A stretch of DNA of 64,000 bases from Rhodoferax sp. GTDB lineage: Bacteria; Pseudomonadota; Gammaproteobacteria; Burkholderiales; Burkholderiaceae_C. The notes beneath the pieces were generated by a model. It was not told the DNA's origin, ran no database searches, and saw only the letters and a list, made by a program, of their open reading frames with translations. The stretch spans positions 62,001-126,000 of the forward strand of contig NZ_JAQURE010000001.1 of the NCBI RefSeq assembly GCF_028715765.1, given 5' to 3'. The position numbers were made by a program, and so were the translations under genes. Shown one piece after another: positions 17,261 to 23,761 of the stretch. Position 1 is the first letter of the stretch, and every line of letters starts with the position of its first letter.

Positions 17261-19129
17261 TTACTTGCGCGCAGGTGGTAAATCCGTACAACTGCCATGC
17301 GCCACTTCCGCCGCCATGCCGATGCTCTCACCCAGCGTCGGGTGCGGGTGGATGGTTTTGCCGATGTCGATGGCGTCGGCACCCATCTCGATCGCCAGAG
17401 CCACTTCGCCAATCATGTCGCCCGCATGGGTGCCGACCATGCCACCGCCCAGAATCTTGCCGTGACCATGCGCTTCGGGGCTGTCGTCGAATAGCAGCTT
17501 GGTCACACCTTCGTCACGGCCATTGGCGATGGCGCGACCTGACGCGTTCCATGGGAACAGGCCTTTCTTAACCTTGATGCCTTGCGCCTTGGCCTGGTCT
17601 TCGGTCAGGCCCACCCAGGCCACTTCCGGGTCGGTGTAGGCCACGCTGGGGATGACGCGGGCGTTGAAAGCAGCGGCGGCCAGTTCCTTGTTGCCTTGCA
17701 GTTCACCGGCAATCACTTCGGCCGCCACATGCGCCTCGTGCACCGCCTTGTGCGCCAGCATCGGCTGGCCAACGATGTCGCCGATGGCAAAGATGTGCGG
17801 CACGTTGGTGCGCATTTGGATGTCGACGTTGATGAAGCCGCGGTCTGTCACGGCCACGCCCGCTTTGTCGGCGGCGATTTTCTTGCCGTTGGGCGTGCGG
17901 CCGACAGCTTGCAGCACCAGGTCATACACCTGCGGTTCGGGGCAAGTGCCGCCCTCCTCTGCTGGCGCAAAGGTGACCTTGATGCCCTCGGGTGTAGCCT
18001 CTGCCGCTACCGTTTTTGTTTTGAGCATGATGTTGTCAAAGCGTGGCGCGTTCATTTTTTGCCAGATTTTGACCAGATCACGATCCGCGCCTTGCATCAG
18101 GCCGTCGAGCATTTCCACCACGTCCAGCCGTGCGCCCAGGGTGCTGTAGACCGTGCCCATTTCCAGGCCGATGATGCCGCCGCCCAAAATCAACATGCGT
18201 TTGGGGACATGCTTGAGCGCCAGTGCGCCGGTGGAGTCCACCACGCGCGGGTCGTTGGGCATGAAGGGCAGGCGCACGGCTTGGCTGCCGGCGGCGATGA
18301 TGGCTTTTTTGAACGCCACCACTTTTTTGCCACCGGTTTTTTCTTGGGATGTGCCGCTGGTTTCTTCCACCTCGACGTGGTTGGCGCCGACGAACGCGCC
18401 GTAGCCGCGCACGATGGTGACTTTGCGCATCTTGGCCATGGCAGCCAGGCCGCCAGTCAATTTACCAATGACCTTTTCTTTGTGGCCGCGCAAGGTGTCC
18501 ACGTTGACCACGGGTTTGCCAAAGTCCACACCCAAAGCGGCCAGGTGGCTGACTTCGTCGATCACGCTGGCCACGTGCAACAGGGCTTTGGAGGGGATGC
18601 AGCCGACGTTCAGGCAGACACCGCCCAAGGTGGCGTAGCGTTCGACGATGACCACTTTAAGCCCTAAGTCGGCGGCGCGAAAAGCTGCCGAGTAGCCGCC
18701 GGGGCCGCCGCCCAGTACCAGCAGGTCGCAGTCCAGGTCGGCTGTGCCGCCAAAGCTGGCTGCATTGGGAGCCGGTGCAGCTGCTGAAGGCGCTACAGAT
18801 TGTGGAGCTGGTTGCGCTTGCTGTACCTGGGCTAGAGGCTGATTTGGCTTGGAATCTTGAGCCGGGGATGCGGCAGGTTGCGCAGCGTCACCTGCGGCTT
18901 CCAGCGTCAACAGCAACGAGCCTTCAGAAACTTTGTCGCCCAGCTTGATCTTGAGTTCTTTCACCACCCCTGCGTGGCTGCAAGGGATTTCCATCGAGGC
19001 TTTGTCGCTCTCAACGGTGATCAGGCTTTGGTCTGCTTTGACGCTGTCGCCGGGTTTGACCAGCAGTTCGATCACTGCCACGTCTTTGAAGTCGCCGATG
19101 TCGGGGACTTTGATGTCGATTTGTGCCAT
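17261..19129 (-). CDS. lpdA: Dihydrolipoyl dehydrogenase with N-terminal lipoyl domain (PDH E3)
   Basis: lipoyl motif VESDKASMEIP, LVLGGGPGGYSAAFRAADLG, GGVCLNVGCIPSKALLH. Confidence 0.95.
   Translation of the reverse strand: MAQIDIKVPDIGDFKDVAVIELLVKPGDSVKADQSLITVESDKASMEIPCSHAGVVKELKIKLGDKVSEGSLLLTLEAAGDAAQPAASPAQDSKPNQPLAQVQQAQPAPQSVAPSAAAPAPNAASFGGTADLDCDLLVLGGGPGGYSAAFRAADLGLKVVIVERYATLGGVCLNVGCIPSKALLHVASVIDEVSHLAALGVDFGKPVVNVDTLRGHKEKVIGKLTGGLAAMAKMRKVTIVRGYGAFVGANHVEVEETSGTSQEKTGGKKVVAFKKAIIAAGSQAVRLPFMPNDPRVVDSTGALALKHVPKRMLILGGGIIGLEMGTVYSTLGARLDVVEMLDGLMQGADRDLVKIWQKMNAPRFDNIMLKTKTVAAEATPEGIKVTFAPAEEGGTCPEPQVYDLVLQAVGRTPNGKKIAADKAGVAVTDRGFINVDIQMRTNVPHIFAIGDIVGQPMLAHKAVHEAHVAAEVIAGELQGNKELAAAAFNARVIPSVAYTDPEVAWVGLTEDQAKAQGIKVKKGLFPWNASGRAIANGRDEGVTKLLFDDSPEAHGHGKILGGGMVGTHAGDMIGEVALAIEMGADAIDIGKTIHPHPTLGESIGMAAEVAHGSCTDLPPARK
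18805..18849 (+). repeat. Intergenic-type palindromic repeat copy inside lpdA linker
   Basis: GAGCTGGTTGCGCTTGCTGTACCTGGGCTAGAGGCTGATTTGG matches intergenic copies (e.g. 9023, 40582). Confidence 0.65.
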
Positions 19130-19147: not shown

Positions 19148-20929
19148 TTAAAGCAGCACCCGACGGAAATCGCCGAGGATTTGACCGAGGTACACGTTAA
19201 ACCGTGCTGCAGCTGCGCCGTCAATCACGCGGTGGTCCCAGGTCAGGCTCAGGGGCAACATCAGGCGTGGCTGGAACGCTTTGCCGTCCCAAATCGGTTC
19301 AATCGTTGAGCGGCAGACACCGAGAATGGCGACCTCAGGCGCGTTGATGATGGGTGTGAAGTAACGCCCGCCAATGCCGCCCAGGCTGCTGATGGTGAAG
19401 CTGGCGCCGGTCATCTCGGCTGGGCCGAGTTTGCCGTCGCGGGCTTTTTTGGCCAGTTCGCCCATCTCGGTGCTGATCTGGAAGATGCCTTTTTTGTCAG
19501 CATCTTTGATCACCGGCACCATCAGGCCGTTGGGCGTGTCGGCGGCAAAACCGATGTGGTAATACTGCTTGTAGATCAGCGCGTCGCCGTCCAAACTGCT
19601 GTTGAACTCAGGGTATTTTTTGAGCGCAGCCACACAGGCTTTGATCAAGAAGGCAAGCATGGTGACCTTCACGCCACTCTTCTCATTTTCTTTGTTGGTG
19701 CTGACGCGGAAGGCTTCCAGGTCGGTGATGTCGCAGTCGTCATGGTTGGTGACGGCCGGAATCATGATGGCGTTGCGCAGCAGGTTAGCGCCGCTGATTT
19801 TCTTGATCCGGCTCAAGTCTTTGCGCTCAACCGGGCCGAATTTGGCAAAGTCCACCTTCGGCCAGGGGATCAAGCCCAAGCCTGCGCCGTCATTGGCGGC
19901 AGCGGCGGCCGGTTTGGCAGCTTGGCTGGCGGCAATGGCCAGGGTTTGGACTGCGCCGCTCATCACCGAGCGGGTGAACGCCTGCACATCATGGTCAGTG
20001 ATGCGGCCTTTCAAACCGCTGCCTTTGACTTCACTCAGCGGTACACCCAGTTCACGCGCAAATTTGCGCACTGAGGGGCTGGCATGGGGCAGACCCAGCA
20101 AGCTACCACCAGGTTGGTGGGCAGGGGTGGTTACCACTGTCTGACTCCCTCCCCCGCTGGGGGAGGGTTGGGGTGGGGGCGAGCCGGCTGAACTAGCTGC
20201 TTGCGCAGAAGCCCCCACCCTGCCCTCCCCCAGCGGGGGAGGATTAAAGGTTTCACCCCCCTGAGGGAGAGAGTTAGATGCCGGGCTGGCTTGCGGCGCA
20301 GACACAGCACCAGCGGCCGCGCCTTCCAAAATGGCCAGCAGGTCGCCCATGTTGACCTTGTCACCGAGTTTGACTTTGAGCTCTTTGATAACGCCAGCGG
20401 CGCTGGAGGGGATTTCCATCGAGGCTTTGTCAGACTCCACGGTGATCAGGCTTTGCTCGGCCTTGACCGTGTCGCCGACCTTGACCATGACCTCAATCAC
20501 GGCCACGTCTTTGAAGTCGCCAATGTCAGGCACGCGCAGCTCAACCGGGCCACTTGCTACGGTGTTAATAGCAGTTTGCGCAGCAGCCACGGGCGCTGCA
20601 GGCTGATTTGATACTGAAACTGGTGCCGCTTCAAAAGTTGTAGCTACTGGCGCAGTATCAACGGGGGCTGCAGCCTGATTTGATGCAGTGCCTTCCACTT
20701 CAAGCAGCAGCACCAAGCTGCCTTCGCTGACCTTGTCGCCCAACGCCACTTTGAGCTCTTTGACCACACCGCCATGGCTGGAGGGGATTTCCATCGACGC
20801 CTTGTCAGACTCAACCGTCAGCAGGCTTTGCTCGGCCTTGACCGTGTCACCGGGTTTGACCAGCAGCTCGATCACTGCCACGTCTGAAAAGTCGCCAATG
20901 TCAGGGACTTTGATTTCAATGATTGCCAT
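19148..20929 (-). CDS. aceF: Dihydrolipoamide acetyltransferase, PDH E2, two lipoyl domains
   Basis: two VESDKASMEIPSS lipoyl motifs, peripheral subunit-binding domain ASPSVRKFARELGVPLSEVKGSGLKGRI, catalytic LSLTWDHRVIDGAAAARF. Confidence 0.95.
   Translation of the reverse strand: MAIIEIKVPDIGDFSDVAVIELLVKPGDTVKAEQSLLTVESDKASMEIPSSHGGVVKELKVALGDKVSEGSLVLLLEVEGTASNQAAAPVDTAPVATTFEAAPVSVSNQPAAPVAAAQTAINTVASGPVELRVPDIGDFKDVAVIEVMVKVGDTVKAEQSLITVESDKASMEIPSSAAGVIKELKVKLGDKVNMGDLLAILEGAAAGAVSAPQASPASNSLPQGGETFNPPPLGEGRVGASAQAASSAGSPPPQPSPSGGGSQTVVTTPAHQPGGSLLGLPHASPSVRKFARELGVPLSEVKGSGLKGRITDHDVQAFTRSVMSGAVQTLAIAASQAAKPAAAAANDGAGLGLIPWPKVDFAKFGPVERKDLSRIKKISGANLLRNAIMIPAVTNHDDCDITDLEAFRVSTNKENEKSGVKVTMLAFLIKACVAALKKYPEFNSSLDGDALIYKQYYHIGFAADTPNGLMVPVIKDADKKGIFQISTEMGELAKKARDGKLGPAEMTGASFTISSLGGIGGRYFTPIINAPEVAILGVCRSTIEPIWDGKAFQPRLMLPLSLTWDHRVIDGAAAARFNVYLGQILGDFRRVLL
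20145..20242. repeat. GC-rich long inverted repeat inside aceF linker (arms 20145-20180 and 20211-20242)
   Basis: CTCCCTCCCCCGCTGGGGGAGGGTTGGGGTGGGGGC versus GCCCCCACCCTGCCCTCCCCCAGCGGGGGAGG. Confidence 0.8.
20567..20614 (+). repeat. Intergenic-type palindromic repeat copy inside aceF linker (copy a)
   Basis: AATAGCAGTTTGCGCAGCAGCCACGGGCGCTGCAGGCTGATTTGATAC. Confidence 0.6.
20639..20686 (+). repeat. Intergenic-type palindromic repeat copy inside aceF linker (copy b)
   Basis: TGTAGCTACTGGCGCAGTATCAACGGGGGCTGCAGCCTGATTTGATGC. Confidence 0.65.
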
Positions 20930-20958: not shown

Positions 20959-23676
20959 TTACGCGTACAGCGGGTTGACCTTGTCGGTGTGGATGCCGTA
21001 TTTGGCAATGGCTTCACTGACTTTGCTCACTGGCACTTTGCCCTCTTCACTCAAGGCTTTCAACGCGGCAATCACGATGAAGTGGCGGTTGATTTCAAAG
21101 TGCTCACGCAATTTGGAGCGGAAGTCGCTGCGGCCAAAGCCGTCGGTGCCCAGCACCTTGTAGGTGCGGTCTTTCGGAATGAAGGCGCGAATTTGCTCGG
21201 CATACGACTTGATGTAGTCGGTCGAGGCCACCACCGGGCCTTCGTGTCCGGCCAACTGCTGCGCCACAAACGACACTTTGGCGGGTGCAGCGGGGTTGAG
21301 CAGGTTGTCGCGCTCGCAGGCTTGGCCGTCACGCGCCAACTCATTGAAGCTGGGGCAGCTCCACACGTCAGCGGTCACCCCCCAATCCACGGCCAGCAGT
21401 TTTTGCGCCACAAAGCTCTCGCGCAGAATGGTGCCGCTACCGAGCAACTGCACGCGCGGGCCAGCGGCACCTTCGGCACCGGGCTTGCATAAATACATGC
21501 CTTTGATGATCTGCTCTTCGGTGCCAGGGGTCAGGCCAGGCATGGCGTAGTTTTCGTTCAACAGCGTCAAGTAATAGAACACGTTGTCTTGTTTTTCGAC
21601 CATGCGTTTGAGGCCATGGTGCAAGATCACGCCCACCTCATGCGCAAAGGTGGGGTCGTAGCTGACACAGTTGGGAATGGTGCCCGCCAGGATGTGGCTG
21701 TGGCCGTCTTCGTGCTGCAAGCCTTCGCCGTTGAGCGTGGTGCGCCCGCTGGTGCCGCCCAGCAAGAAGCCGCGCGCCTGCATGTCGCCCGCAGCCCAGG
21801 CCAGGTCGCCAATGCGCTGAAAGCCGAACATCGAGTAGTACACGTAAAACGGCACCATGATGCGGTTGCTGGTTGAATAGCTGGTAGCTGCTGCAATCCA
21901 GCTGGCCATGCCACCGGCTTCGTTGATGCCTTCTTGCAGAATCTGGCCTTTTTTGTCTTCCTTGTAATACATCACCTGGTCTTTGTCGACCGGGGTGTAG
22001 TTTTGTCCGGCTGGGTTGTAGATGCCGATCTGGCGGAACAAGCCTTCCATGCCAAAAGTGCGAGCTTCGTCCACCAAAATCGGCACCACGCGCTGGCCCA
22101 GCGCCTGGTCACGCAACAGCTGGGTGATAAAGCGCACGTAGGCCTGTGTGGTGGAGATTTCGCGCCCCTCAGGCGTGGGCTCCATCACCGCCTTGAAGGT
22201 GTCGATGGATGGCACGGTGAAGTGCTCGTCAGCCTTGGTGCGGCGGTGCGGCAGGTAGCCGCCCAGCGCTTTGCGGCGCTCGTGCAGGTAACGCATTTCG
22301 GGTGTGTCGTCAGCCGGTTTGTAAAACGGGATGTCCTTGATCTGGCTGTCGGGAATTGGAATGTTGAAGCGGTCACGAAACGTCTTGATGTCGTCGTCAG
22401 TGAGCTTTTTGGTTTGGTGCACGTTGTTTTTGCCCTCACCGCTCTTGCCCATGCCAAAACCTTTGACGGTTTTGATCAGCAGCACCGTGGGCTGGCCTTT
22501 GTGGTTGACCGCAGCGTGGTAGGCGGCATACACCTTTTGTGGATCGTGACCACCACGGCGCAGGTTCCAGATGTCGTCGTCGCTCATCTTGGCCACCATC
22601 TCTGCAGTTTTGGGGTCGCGGCCAAAGAAGTTTTTGCGCACAAACGCGCCGTCATTGGCTTTGAAGGATTGGTAGTCTCCGTCGAGTGTGTCCATCATGA
22701 CCTTACGCAAGGCGCCGTCTTTGTCACGTGCCAGCAGTGGGTCCCAGTTGCTACCCCACAGCAGCTTGATCACATTCCAGCCGGCGCCACGGAACGTGCC
22801 TTCGAGCTCTTGCACAATTTTGCCGTTGCCGCGCACCGGGCCGTCCAGGCGTTGCAGGTTGCAGTTGATGACAAACACCAGGTTGTCCAGGTTTTCACGA
22901 GCGGCCAGGCCAATGGCGCCCAAAGATTCCACCTCGTCCATTTCGCCGTCGCCACAAAACACCCAAACCTTGCGGTTTTCGGTGTTGGCAATGCCACGGG
23001 CATGCAGGTATTTCAAAAAGCGGGCTTGGTAAATGGCCATCAGTGGGCCTAGACCCATTGACACCGTGGGAAATTGCCAGAACTCAGGCATCAATTTTGG
23101 GTGAGGGTAACTGCTCAAGCCCTTGCCGCCAGTTTCTTGACGGAAATGCAGCAACTGCTCTTCTGTCAAGCGGCCTTCTAAATAGGCACGGGCATACACA
23201 CCTGGCGCCACGTGGCCTTGGATGTAAAGGCAGTCGCCACCGTGGTTTTCGCTCTCTGCATGCCAAAAGTGGTTAAAGCCAGCGCCAAACATGTGTGCCA
23301 GCGAGGCGAATGAGCCGATGTGGCCGCCCAGGTCGCCACCGTCTTCAGGGTGATGGCGGTTGGCTTTGACCACCATGGCCATGGCGTTCCAACGCATGTA
23401 AGCGCGCAAGCGTTCTTCAATTTCGATGTTGCCGGGGCAACGTTCTTCTTGGTCGGGCTCGATGGTGTTGACGTAGCCGGTGTTGGCTGAAAAAGGCATG
23501 TCAATGCTGCTTTGGCGTGCGTGCTCAAGCAGCTGCTCCAGCAAGTAGTGTGCGCGCTCGGGGCCTTCTTGGCCAATGACGGCGCTTAAAGCGTCCATCC
23601 ATTCACGGGTTTCTTGGCTATCGAGGTCTTGGCTGGGCACAGGGGCGCCAGAAGGGCTTGTGGGGGTTGCTGACAT
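20959..23676 (-). CDS. aceE: Pyruvate dehydrogenase E1 component, homodimeric type
   Basis: DGEMDEVESLGAIGLAARENLDNLVFVINCNLQRLDGPVRGNGKIVQELEG; start chosen at MSATPTSPSG. Confidence 0.96.
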   Translation of the reverse strand: MSATPTSPSGAPVPSQDLDSQETREWMDALSAVIGQEGPERAHYLLEQLLEHARQSSIDMPFSANTGYVNTIEPDQEERCPGNIEIEERLRAYMRWNAMAMVVKANRHHPEDGGDLGGHIGSFASLAHMFGAGFNHFWHAESENHGGDCLYIQGHVAPGVYARAYLEGRLTEEQLLHFRQETGGKGLSSYPHPKLMPEFWQFPTVSMGLGPLMAIYQARFLKYLHARGIANTENRKVWVFCGDGEMDEVESLGAIGLAARENLDNLVFVINCNLQRLDGPVRGNGKIVQELEGTFRGAGWNVIKLLWGSNWDPLLARDKDGALRKVMMDTLDGDYQSFKANDGAFVRKNFFGRDPKTAEMVAKMSDDDIWNLRRGGHDPQKVYAAYHAAVNHKGQPTVLLIKTVKGFGMGKSGEGKNNVHQTKKLTDDDIKTFRDRFNIPIPDSQIKDIPFYKPADDTPEMRYLHERRKALGGYLPHRRTKADEHFTVPSIDTFKAVMEPTPEGREISTTQAYVRFITQLLRDQALGQRVVPILVDEARTFGMEGLFRQIGIYNPAGQNYTPVDKDQVMYYKEDKKGQILQEGINEAGGMASWIAAATSYSTSNRIMVPFYVYYSMFGFQRIGDLAWAAGDMQARGFLLGGTSGRTTLNGEGLQHEDGHSHILAGTIPNCVSYDPTFAHEVGVILHHGLKRMVEKQDNVFYYLTLLNENYAMPGLTPGTEEQIIKGMYLCKPGAEGAAGPRVQLLGSGTILRESFVAQKLLAVDWGVTADVWSCPSFNELARDGQACERDNLLNPAAPAKVSFVAQQLAGHEGPVVASTDYIKSYAEQIRAFIPKDRTYKVLGTDGFGRSDFRSKLREHFEINRHFIVIAALKALSEEGKVPVSKVSEAIAKYGIHTDKVNPLYA

Positions 23677-23761
23677 GCTTGTCTCCGTTGTTGTTAAGCC
23701 ATTTGATCTTAGGGGAATTGACCATAGGAATGGTTGAAATAATTTTATAACCCTTTCCATA

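Follow-up and report, generated by a model that had tools for sequence, protein, structure and literature searches.

The palindromic element in the aceF gene of this Rhodoferax-like Comamonadaceae is very probably an inverted pair of a non-autonomous, REP-like unit, in or very near the TMECO/PIT family, that has multiplied in this Rhodoferax lineage. The pair was then inserted in the aceF linker after the split from the nearest sequenced relatives, and has been tolerated there. The number of copies, their arrangement in inverted pairs, the in-frame position in the linker, the restriction to certain lineages, an empty site at another locus and co-variation between stem and third strand were all directly observed. 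The window is the whole stretch of DNA that was analysed (64,000 nucleotides); coordinates refer to it unless a contig or locus is named.

Results

The aceF linker contains an inverted pair of hairpin units

The aceF open reading frame, which lies between aceE (20959-23760) and lpd (17261-19129), encodes 593 aa on the minus strand. Its product matches two Biotin_lipoyl domains, E3_binding and 2-oxoacid_dh in Pfam. The initial annotation had described a long inverted repeat lying in frame in the linker of this protein, and the arms, the folding and the open frame were all confirmed. The inverted arms (20148-20178 and 20212-20242) are 31 nt long, 87% complementary and 33 nt apart. Folding of the element strand gave -44.8 kcal/mol, as compared to a mean of -23.7 kcal/mol for dinucleotide shuffles (z = -8.2; 0 of 200 shuffles). 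The frame remains open across the element, which contributes a peptide of 34 residues, NPPPLGEGRVGASAQAASSAGSPPPQPSPSGGGS, between lipoyl domain 2 and the E3_binding domain.

Each arm is itself a palindrome, a 9-bp hairpin (CCCTCCCCC-GCT-GGGGGAGGG), followed by a G-rich tail. Thus, the aceF element is an inverted pair of a repeat unit of about 34 nt, with the general form CCCTCCCCC-n3-GGGGGAGGG-TTG-GGGTGGGGG-C. Unit 1 has the tail TTG-GGGTGGGGG-C and unit 2 the tail CA-GGGTGGGGG-C, and the two tails point toward each other. The features are as follows.

19148-20929, minus strand: aceF, dihydrolipoamide acetyltransferase E2 of pyruvate dehydrogenase (open reading frame and Pfam)
20139-20252: entire inserted doublet with its conserved flanks, about 114 bp or 38 codons with approximate outer limits (from the flank consensus across 46 genomic units)
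20147-20180, plus strand: unit 1, with a T-type second loop; stem CCCTCCCCC (20147-20155), loop GCT, stem GGGGGAGGG (20159-20167), loop TTG, third strand GGGTGGGGG (20171-20179), then C
20181-20210: 30-bp spacer between the units, containing TAGCTGCTTGCGCA at 20194-20207 (genomic matches)
20211-20243, minus strand: unit 2, with a C-type second loop; TCCTCCCCC GCT GGGGGAGGG CAGGGTGGGGGC, 33 nt, tail one base shorter
20252-20275: possible third, degenerate palindrome adjoining the doublet, weak; minus strand CTCTCCCTCAGGGGGGTGAAA, encoding LPQGGET (read from the sequence)
20569-20684: remnants of a second repeat family in the linker between lipoyl domains 1 and 2 (sequence similarity)

The conserved flanks suggest that the mobile piece may span about 20139-20252, limits that are inferred from these flanks. 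The covariance model described below did not detect the possible third palindrome at 20252-20275. The stretch GGGGGAGGGTTGGGGTGGGGG at 20159-20179 also matches a G-quadruplex pattern with very short loops.

The unit is repeated throughout the host genome

A search for further copies in the host genome had been proposed with the initial annotation. A covariance model was built from 22 units and strong scores were counted in the draft assembly (112 contigs). This search returned 46 units at 30 loci, both intergenic and intragenic. For the unit core, shuffles of the window give an expectation of 0. Conservation reaches about 9 nt beyond the stem (T at -5 in 42 of 46 units) and about 4 nt beyond the tail. 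Three subfamilies can be distinguished: CCCTCTCCC/GGGTGAGGG, CCCTCCCCC/GGGTGGGGG and CCTTCCCCC/GGATGGGGG. In the first of these, three doublets (L170, L174 and L180) have a 28-nt spacer in common, which suggests that the 96-bp doublet was copied in one piece.

About half of the units are intergenic, and those in genes nearly always lie in inter-domain linkers or tails. About ten loci are inside protein genes; the frame is preserved in aceF and in several other genes with Pfam support. Pfam places units between the lipoyl and E3-binding domains of a second 2-oxoacid E2, between Fer2_4 and a 4Fe-4S domain in formate dehydrogenase alpha, between the membrane and ATPase domains of an ABC exporter, and between the central and C-terminal domains of UDP-glucose dehydrogenase. 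Other units were found in a loop of urease alpha, after the domain of an acyltransferase, in the C-terminal tails of RuvB and LpxK, and in two UvrA-type frames, both cut by contig ends. One copy lies inside a Pfam match to DUF3306, so that the preference for linkers is strong but not absolute; another is in an uncertain Eco57I-type frame. The remaining units are intergenic or in frames without Pfam support. Of 45 units, 26 are free of stops in all six frames, and the residues they encode are mostly P and G.

Pairing follows a rule

In 15 cases two units are found within 200 bp of each other, as compared to about 0.12 close pairs expected by chance, and all 15 pairs are inverted. Tail-in pairs combine a T-type and a C-type second loop in 9 of 9 cases (P=0.002), the aceF pair being TT+CA, but tail-out pairs do not obey this rule (3 of 6). 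In E. coli, 5 of 5 inverted TMECO pairs have one A (TT) and one B (C) second loop (Holder et al. 2015, PMC4666352), as seen here in the doublet between phnE and phnD (L198). Because of the A+B rule, an internal mismatch is fixed in the long hairpin of the doublet. For E. coli TnpA-REP, a bulge is required for REP recognition (PMC8266576). The internal mismatch may be comparable to that bulge, by analogy only.

Stem and third strand vary together

The third strand of a purine-motif intrastrand triplex is antiparallel to the purine stem and therefore in register with the pyrimidine stem. Triplets (stem5':stem3'·third strand) were counted accordingly. At position 3 they were C:G·G in 27 units and T:A·A in 15, with 3 intermediates (Fisher 4e-10); at position 6 they were C:G·G in 28, T:A·A in 9, G:A·A in four and others in four (Fisher 6e-7). 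Since the units fall into three related subfamilies, these Fisher values suggest more independent changes than there are; their true number is small. At position 4, 41 of 45 units have T:A·T. In the Burkholderiales aceF loci, in-register stems have T6 with A6 in 16 of 17 cases and C6 with G6 in 8 of 8. Stem and third strand thus co-vary at two positions in the way that a triplex predicts. This mirror coupling is predicted by neither a Watson-Crick hairpin nor a G-quadruplex.

TMECO triplex formation has been demonstrated only in vitro, and footprinting in vivo saw no triplex (Holder et al., PMC4666352). The co-variation in natural copies is independent evidence that the triple helix matters to the repeat.

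Relatives lack the aceF element or carry other copies

Among 36 congeners, counted with stricter filters than the host, most carry 0-6 units and one carries 18, as compared to 46 in the host genome. The nearest Rhodoferax aceF orthologues have a linker without the unit. In Ramlibacter, Hydrogenophaga, Comamonas, Caenimonas, Vandammella and others, units are found in the aceF linker at other points and in other orientations. Altogether, the linker holds units in 17 of 75 Burkholderiales loci, at a density (allowing up to 4 mismatches) of 1.86 units per kb, versus 0.071 elsewhere in the same loci, a 26-fold difference. Because positions, orientations and sequences differ, these units were apparently acquired independently in different genera.

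The comparison of aceF orthologues had been expected to give a clean presence/absence boundary. Its outcome favoured the initial annotation: the closest Rhodoferax lack the element and other genera have different copies elsewhere in the linker, but the aceF linker is hypervariable and too variable to align, so that no clean empty-site boundary can be drawn there. Urease alpha and UDP-glucose dehydrogenase were used instead. In urease alpha (UreC) the copy adds 54 bp, which are cleanly missing in 11 congeners, the nearest of them 92-95% identical in protein; in UDP-glucose dehydrogenase the insert is absent in most congeners. Together with the genomic copies, these comparisons support the view of the initial annotation that the segment is a mobile miniature palindromic element tolerated in a linker. 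That account did not mention TMECO/PIT, the known triplex repeat of which the unit is probably a variant.

In two aceF orthologues (L048 and L109) the linker holds a different inverted repeat family, encoding VRPELVEG...TLRQAQD. The linker between the membrane and ATPase domains of the ABC exporter has species-specific inserts among Rhodoferax: a TMECO doublet (L226), a single unit (L232) and unrelated repeats (L224, L225 and L227-L229). This linker is a second recurrent landing site.

A second repeat family is present in the same gene

The presence of two kinds of element in aceF, as initially annotated, proved true, and the spacer of the doublet itself carries a second-family motif, TAGCTGCTTGCGCA, similar to the repeats at 20569 and 20641. 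This 14-bp core has 78 genomic matches with at most 1 mismatch, 15 of them exact, while a reversed-pattern control gave 0. Copies of the second family have about 45 bp in common, roughly TAGCTGCTTGCGCTTATTTTATAAGCGCTAGAGGC. The aceF repeats at 20569-20582 and 20641-20654 look like degenerate relatives of this family, to judge from sequence similarity; the motif GCTGCAGNCTGATTTGA of the 20569-20684 region was found only there in the genome. Pieces of the second family are present in both aceF linkers, and the second E2 linker (L179) also holds one. In lpd, the lipoyl-to-E3 linker (18790-18860) contains a segment similar to the second family (GAGCTGGTTGCGCTTGCTGTACCTGGGCTAGAGGCTGATTTGG).

Discussion

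Could the aceF pair be a canonical REPIN, mobilised by the single RAYT-like Y1 transposase of the genome (G000:C23:38184-38510, ORF of 234 aa)? Inverted doublets, a conserved arm mismatch, units of 20-50 nt and a single-copy Y1_Tnp gene of RAYT size would all fit this explanation. However, GTAG occurs within 15 nt of only 2 of 46 units, the flank being a different conserved stretch; no unit lies within 20 kb of the host's only Y1_Tnp gene; and nearly all congeners have such a gene, whether the genome carries 0 or 46 units. Among the marks of a REPtron, over-represented inverted doublets are present, but a GTAG-type tag and units flanking a RAYT gene are absent. The units thus resemble REPINs in architecture and spread but, having neither GTAG tags nor linkage to Y1_Tnp, do not qualify as RAYT-driven REPINs, and we consider this explanation unlikely. 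A RAYT as driver is supported by neither linkage nor copy number. The Y1_Tnp gene itself (L001, 1462-2166) is RAYT-sized, single and not flanked by units, and similar genes are nearly universal in the genus.

Selection for a functional part of aceF, such as a pause site (triplex or G-quadruplex) or a length-tuned linker, could account for the strong folding, the G-run pattern and the occurrence of units in two E2 genes of the host genome. It is nevertheless quite improbable, given that the nearest orthologues lack the segment, that position and orientation vary among genera and that unrelated repeats occupy the same linker. The linker is Ala/Pro/Gly-rich in all orthologues, as would be expected if low-complexity Pro/Gly codons had expanded and looked palindromic by chance. 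This hardly seems credible: the same unit occurs elsewhere in intergenic DNA and in several frames, on either strand, and hairpin and third strand are conserved at the DNA level.

Insertion of a mobile TMECO-like pair is therefore the reading that we retain. Copying would take place at replication forks, with the unit in the form of a single-stranded hairpin or triplex, through a trans-acting nuclease or template switching, and the element is probably tolerated in E2 rather than beneficial. The doublet probably persists in the linker because most units have no stops in six frames and encode a Pro/Gly-rich, presumably disordered peptide that is tolerated between domains. Much more tentatively, and with considerable doubt on our part, TMECO-type repeats might form a separate class of mobile elements. 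The selected and recognised form would then be the single-stranded triplex, made up of the hairpin and a mirror-repeat third strand and kept by three-way compensatory change; non-RAYT machinery would move it, and inter-domain linkers would serve as refuges.

The E2 and ABC-exporter linkers repeatedly take up unrelated palindromic repeats. This is a direct route from mobile DNA to protein sequence, and it shows where proteins accept new DNA. Annotators should be warned that protein motifs like PPPQPSPSGGGS or SPSPQPSPQRGEG are repeat-derived.

Comparison with known systems

Literature searches on insertions into E2 linkers, or on palindromic repeats in Comamonadaceae, returned nothing relevant. 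REPINs and BIMEs (Bertels and Rainey 2011, PMC3116915) are, like the host units, over-represented, non-autonomous inverted doublets of a short palindromic unit that form one long hairpin. The host units differ from them in having no GTAG tag and no linked RAYT and in being often intragenic, and among them only the TMECO-type subset has a conserved spacer. Intragenic GTAG/CGTC REPs and Rickettsia palindromic elements (PMC3733652) are also in-frame palindromic repeats in coding sequence, often dimers, with UvrA among the hosts. The host units have a different sequence without a GTAG/CGTC tag, and lie mostly in inter-domain linkers, including those of E2 enzymes. As in Rickettsia palindromic elements, insertion is in frame with an intact host protein, and homologues in close relatives lack the insert (UreC, UDP-glucose dehydrogenase). 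The CCCTCTCCC-XX(X)-GGGAGAGGG repeats of Enterobacter sp. 638 (PMC2869309) have the same hairpin core in about 100 copies, often duplicate, but were described as presumed terminators located at gene 3' ends.

The closest system is TMECO/PIT, the PIT elements being known from earlier work of Hoyne/Maher as cited in PMC4666352. The published TMECO pattern is CCCTCNCCC-N3-6-GGGNGAGGG-N3-GGGNGAGGG, with one mismatch allowed (PMC4666352). Host units L170, L171, L174 and L178 fit it exactly. The aceF units depart from it at third-strand position 6; in unit 1 this is the one deviation, and the base is that which restores the triplet. On this sequence evidence the unit would be a G-richer variant of the known repeat: aceF-type units have a G-richer third strand (GGGTGGGGG or GGATGGGGG, not GGGNGAGGG) and are without the TGA of the TMECO tail. 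In the counts of copies, units lacking this TGA show no more than a trend toward lying in genes. TMECO repeats were previously known as intergenic, reportedly always so in E. coli MG1655 (PMC4666352), whereas host units can also lie in genes. Both have a 9-nt pyrimidine stem, a short loop, a 9-nt purine stem, a 3-nt loop and a 9-nt purine third strand (Holder et al. 2015, PMC4666352), and both occur as scattered copies in proteobacteria and as inverted pairs in which an A type is joined to a B type.
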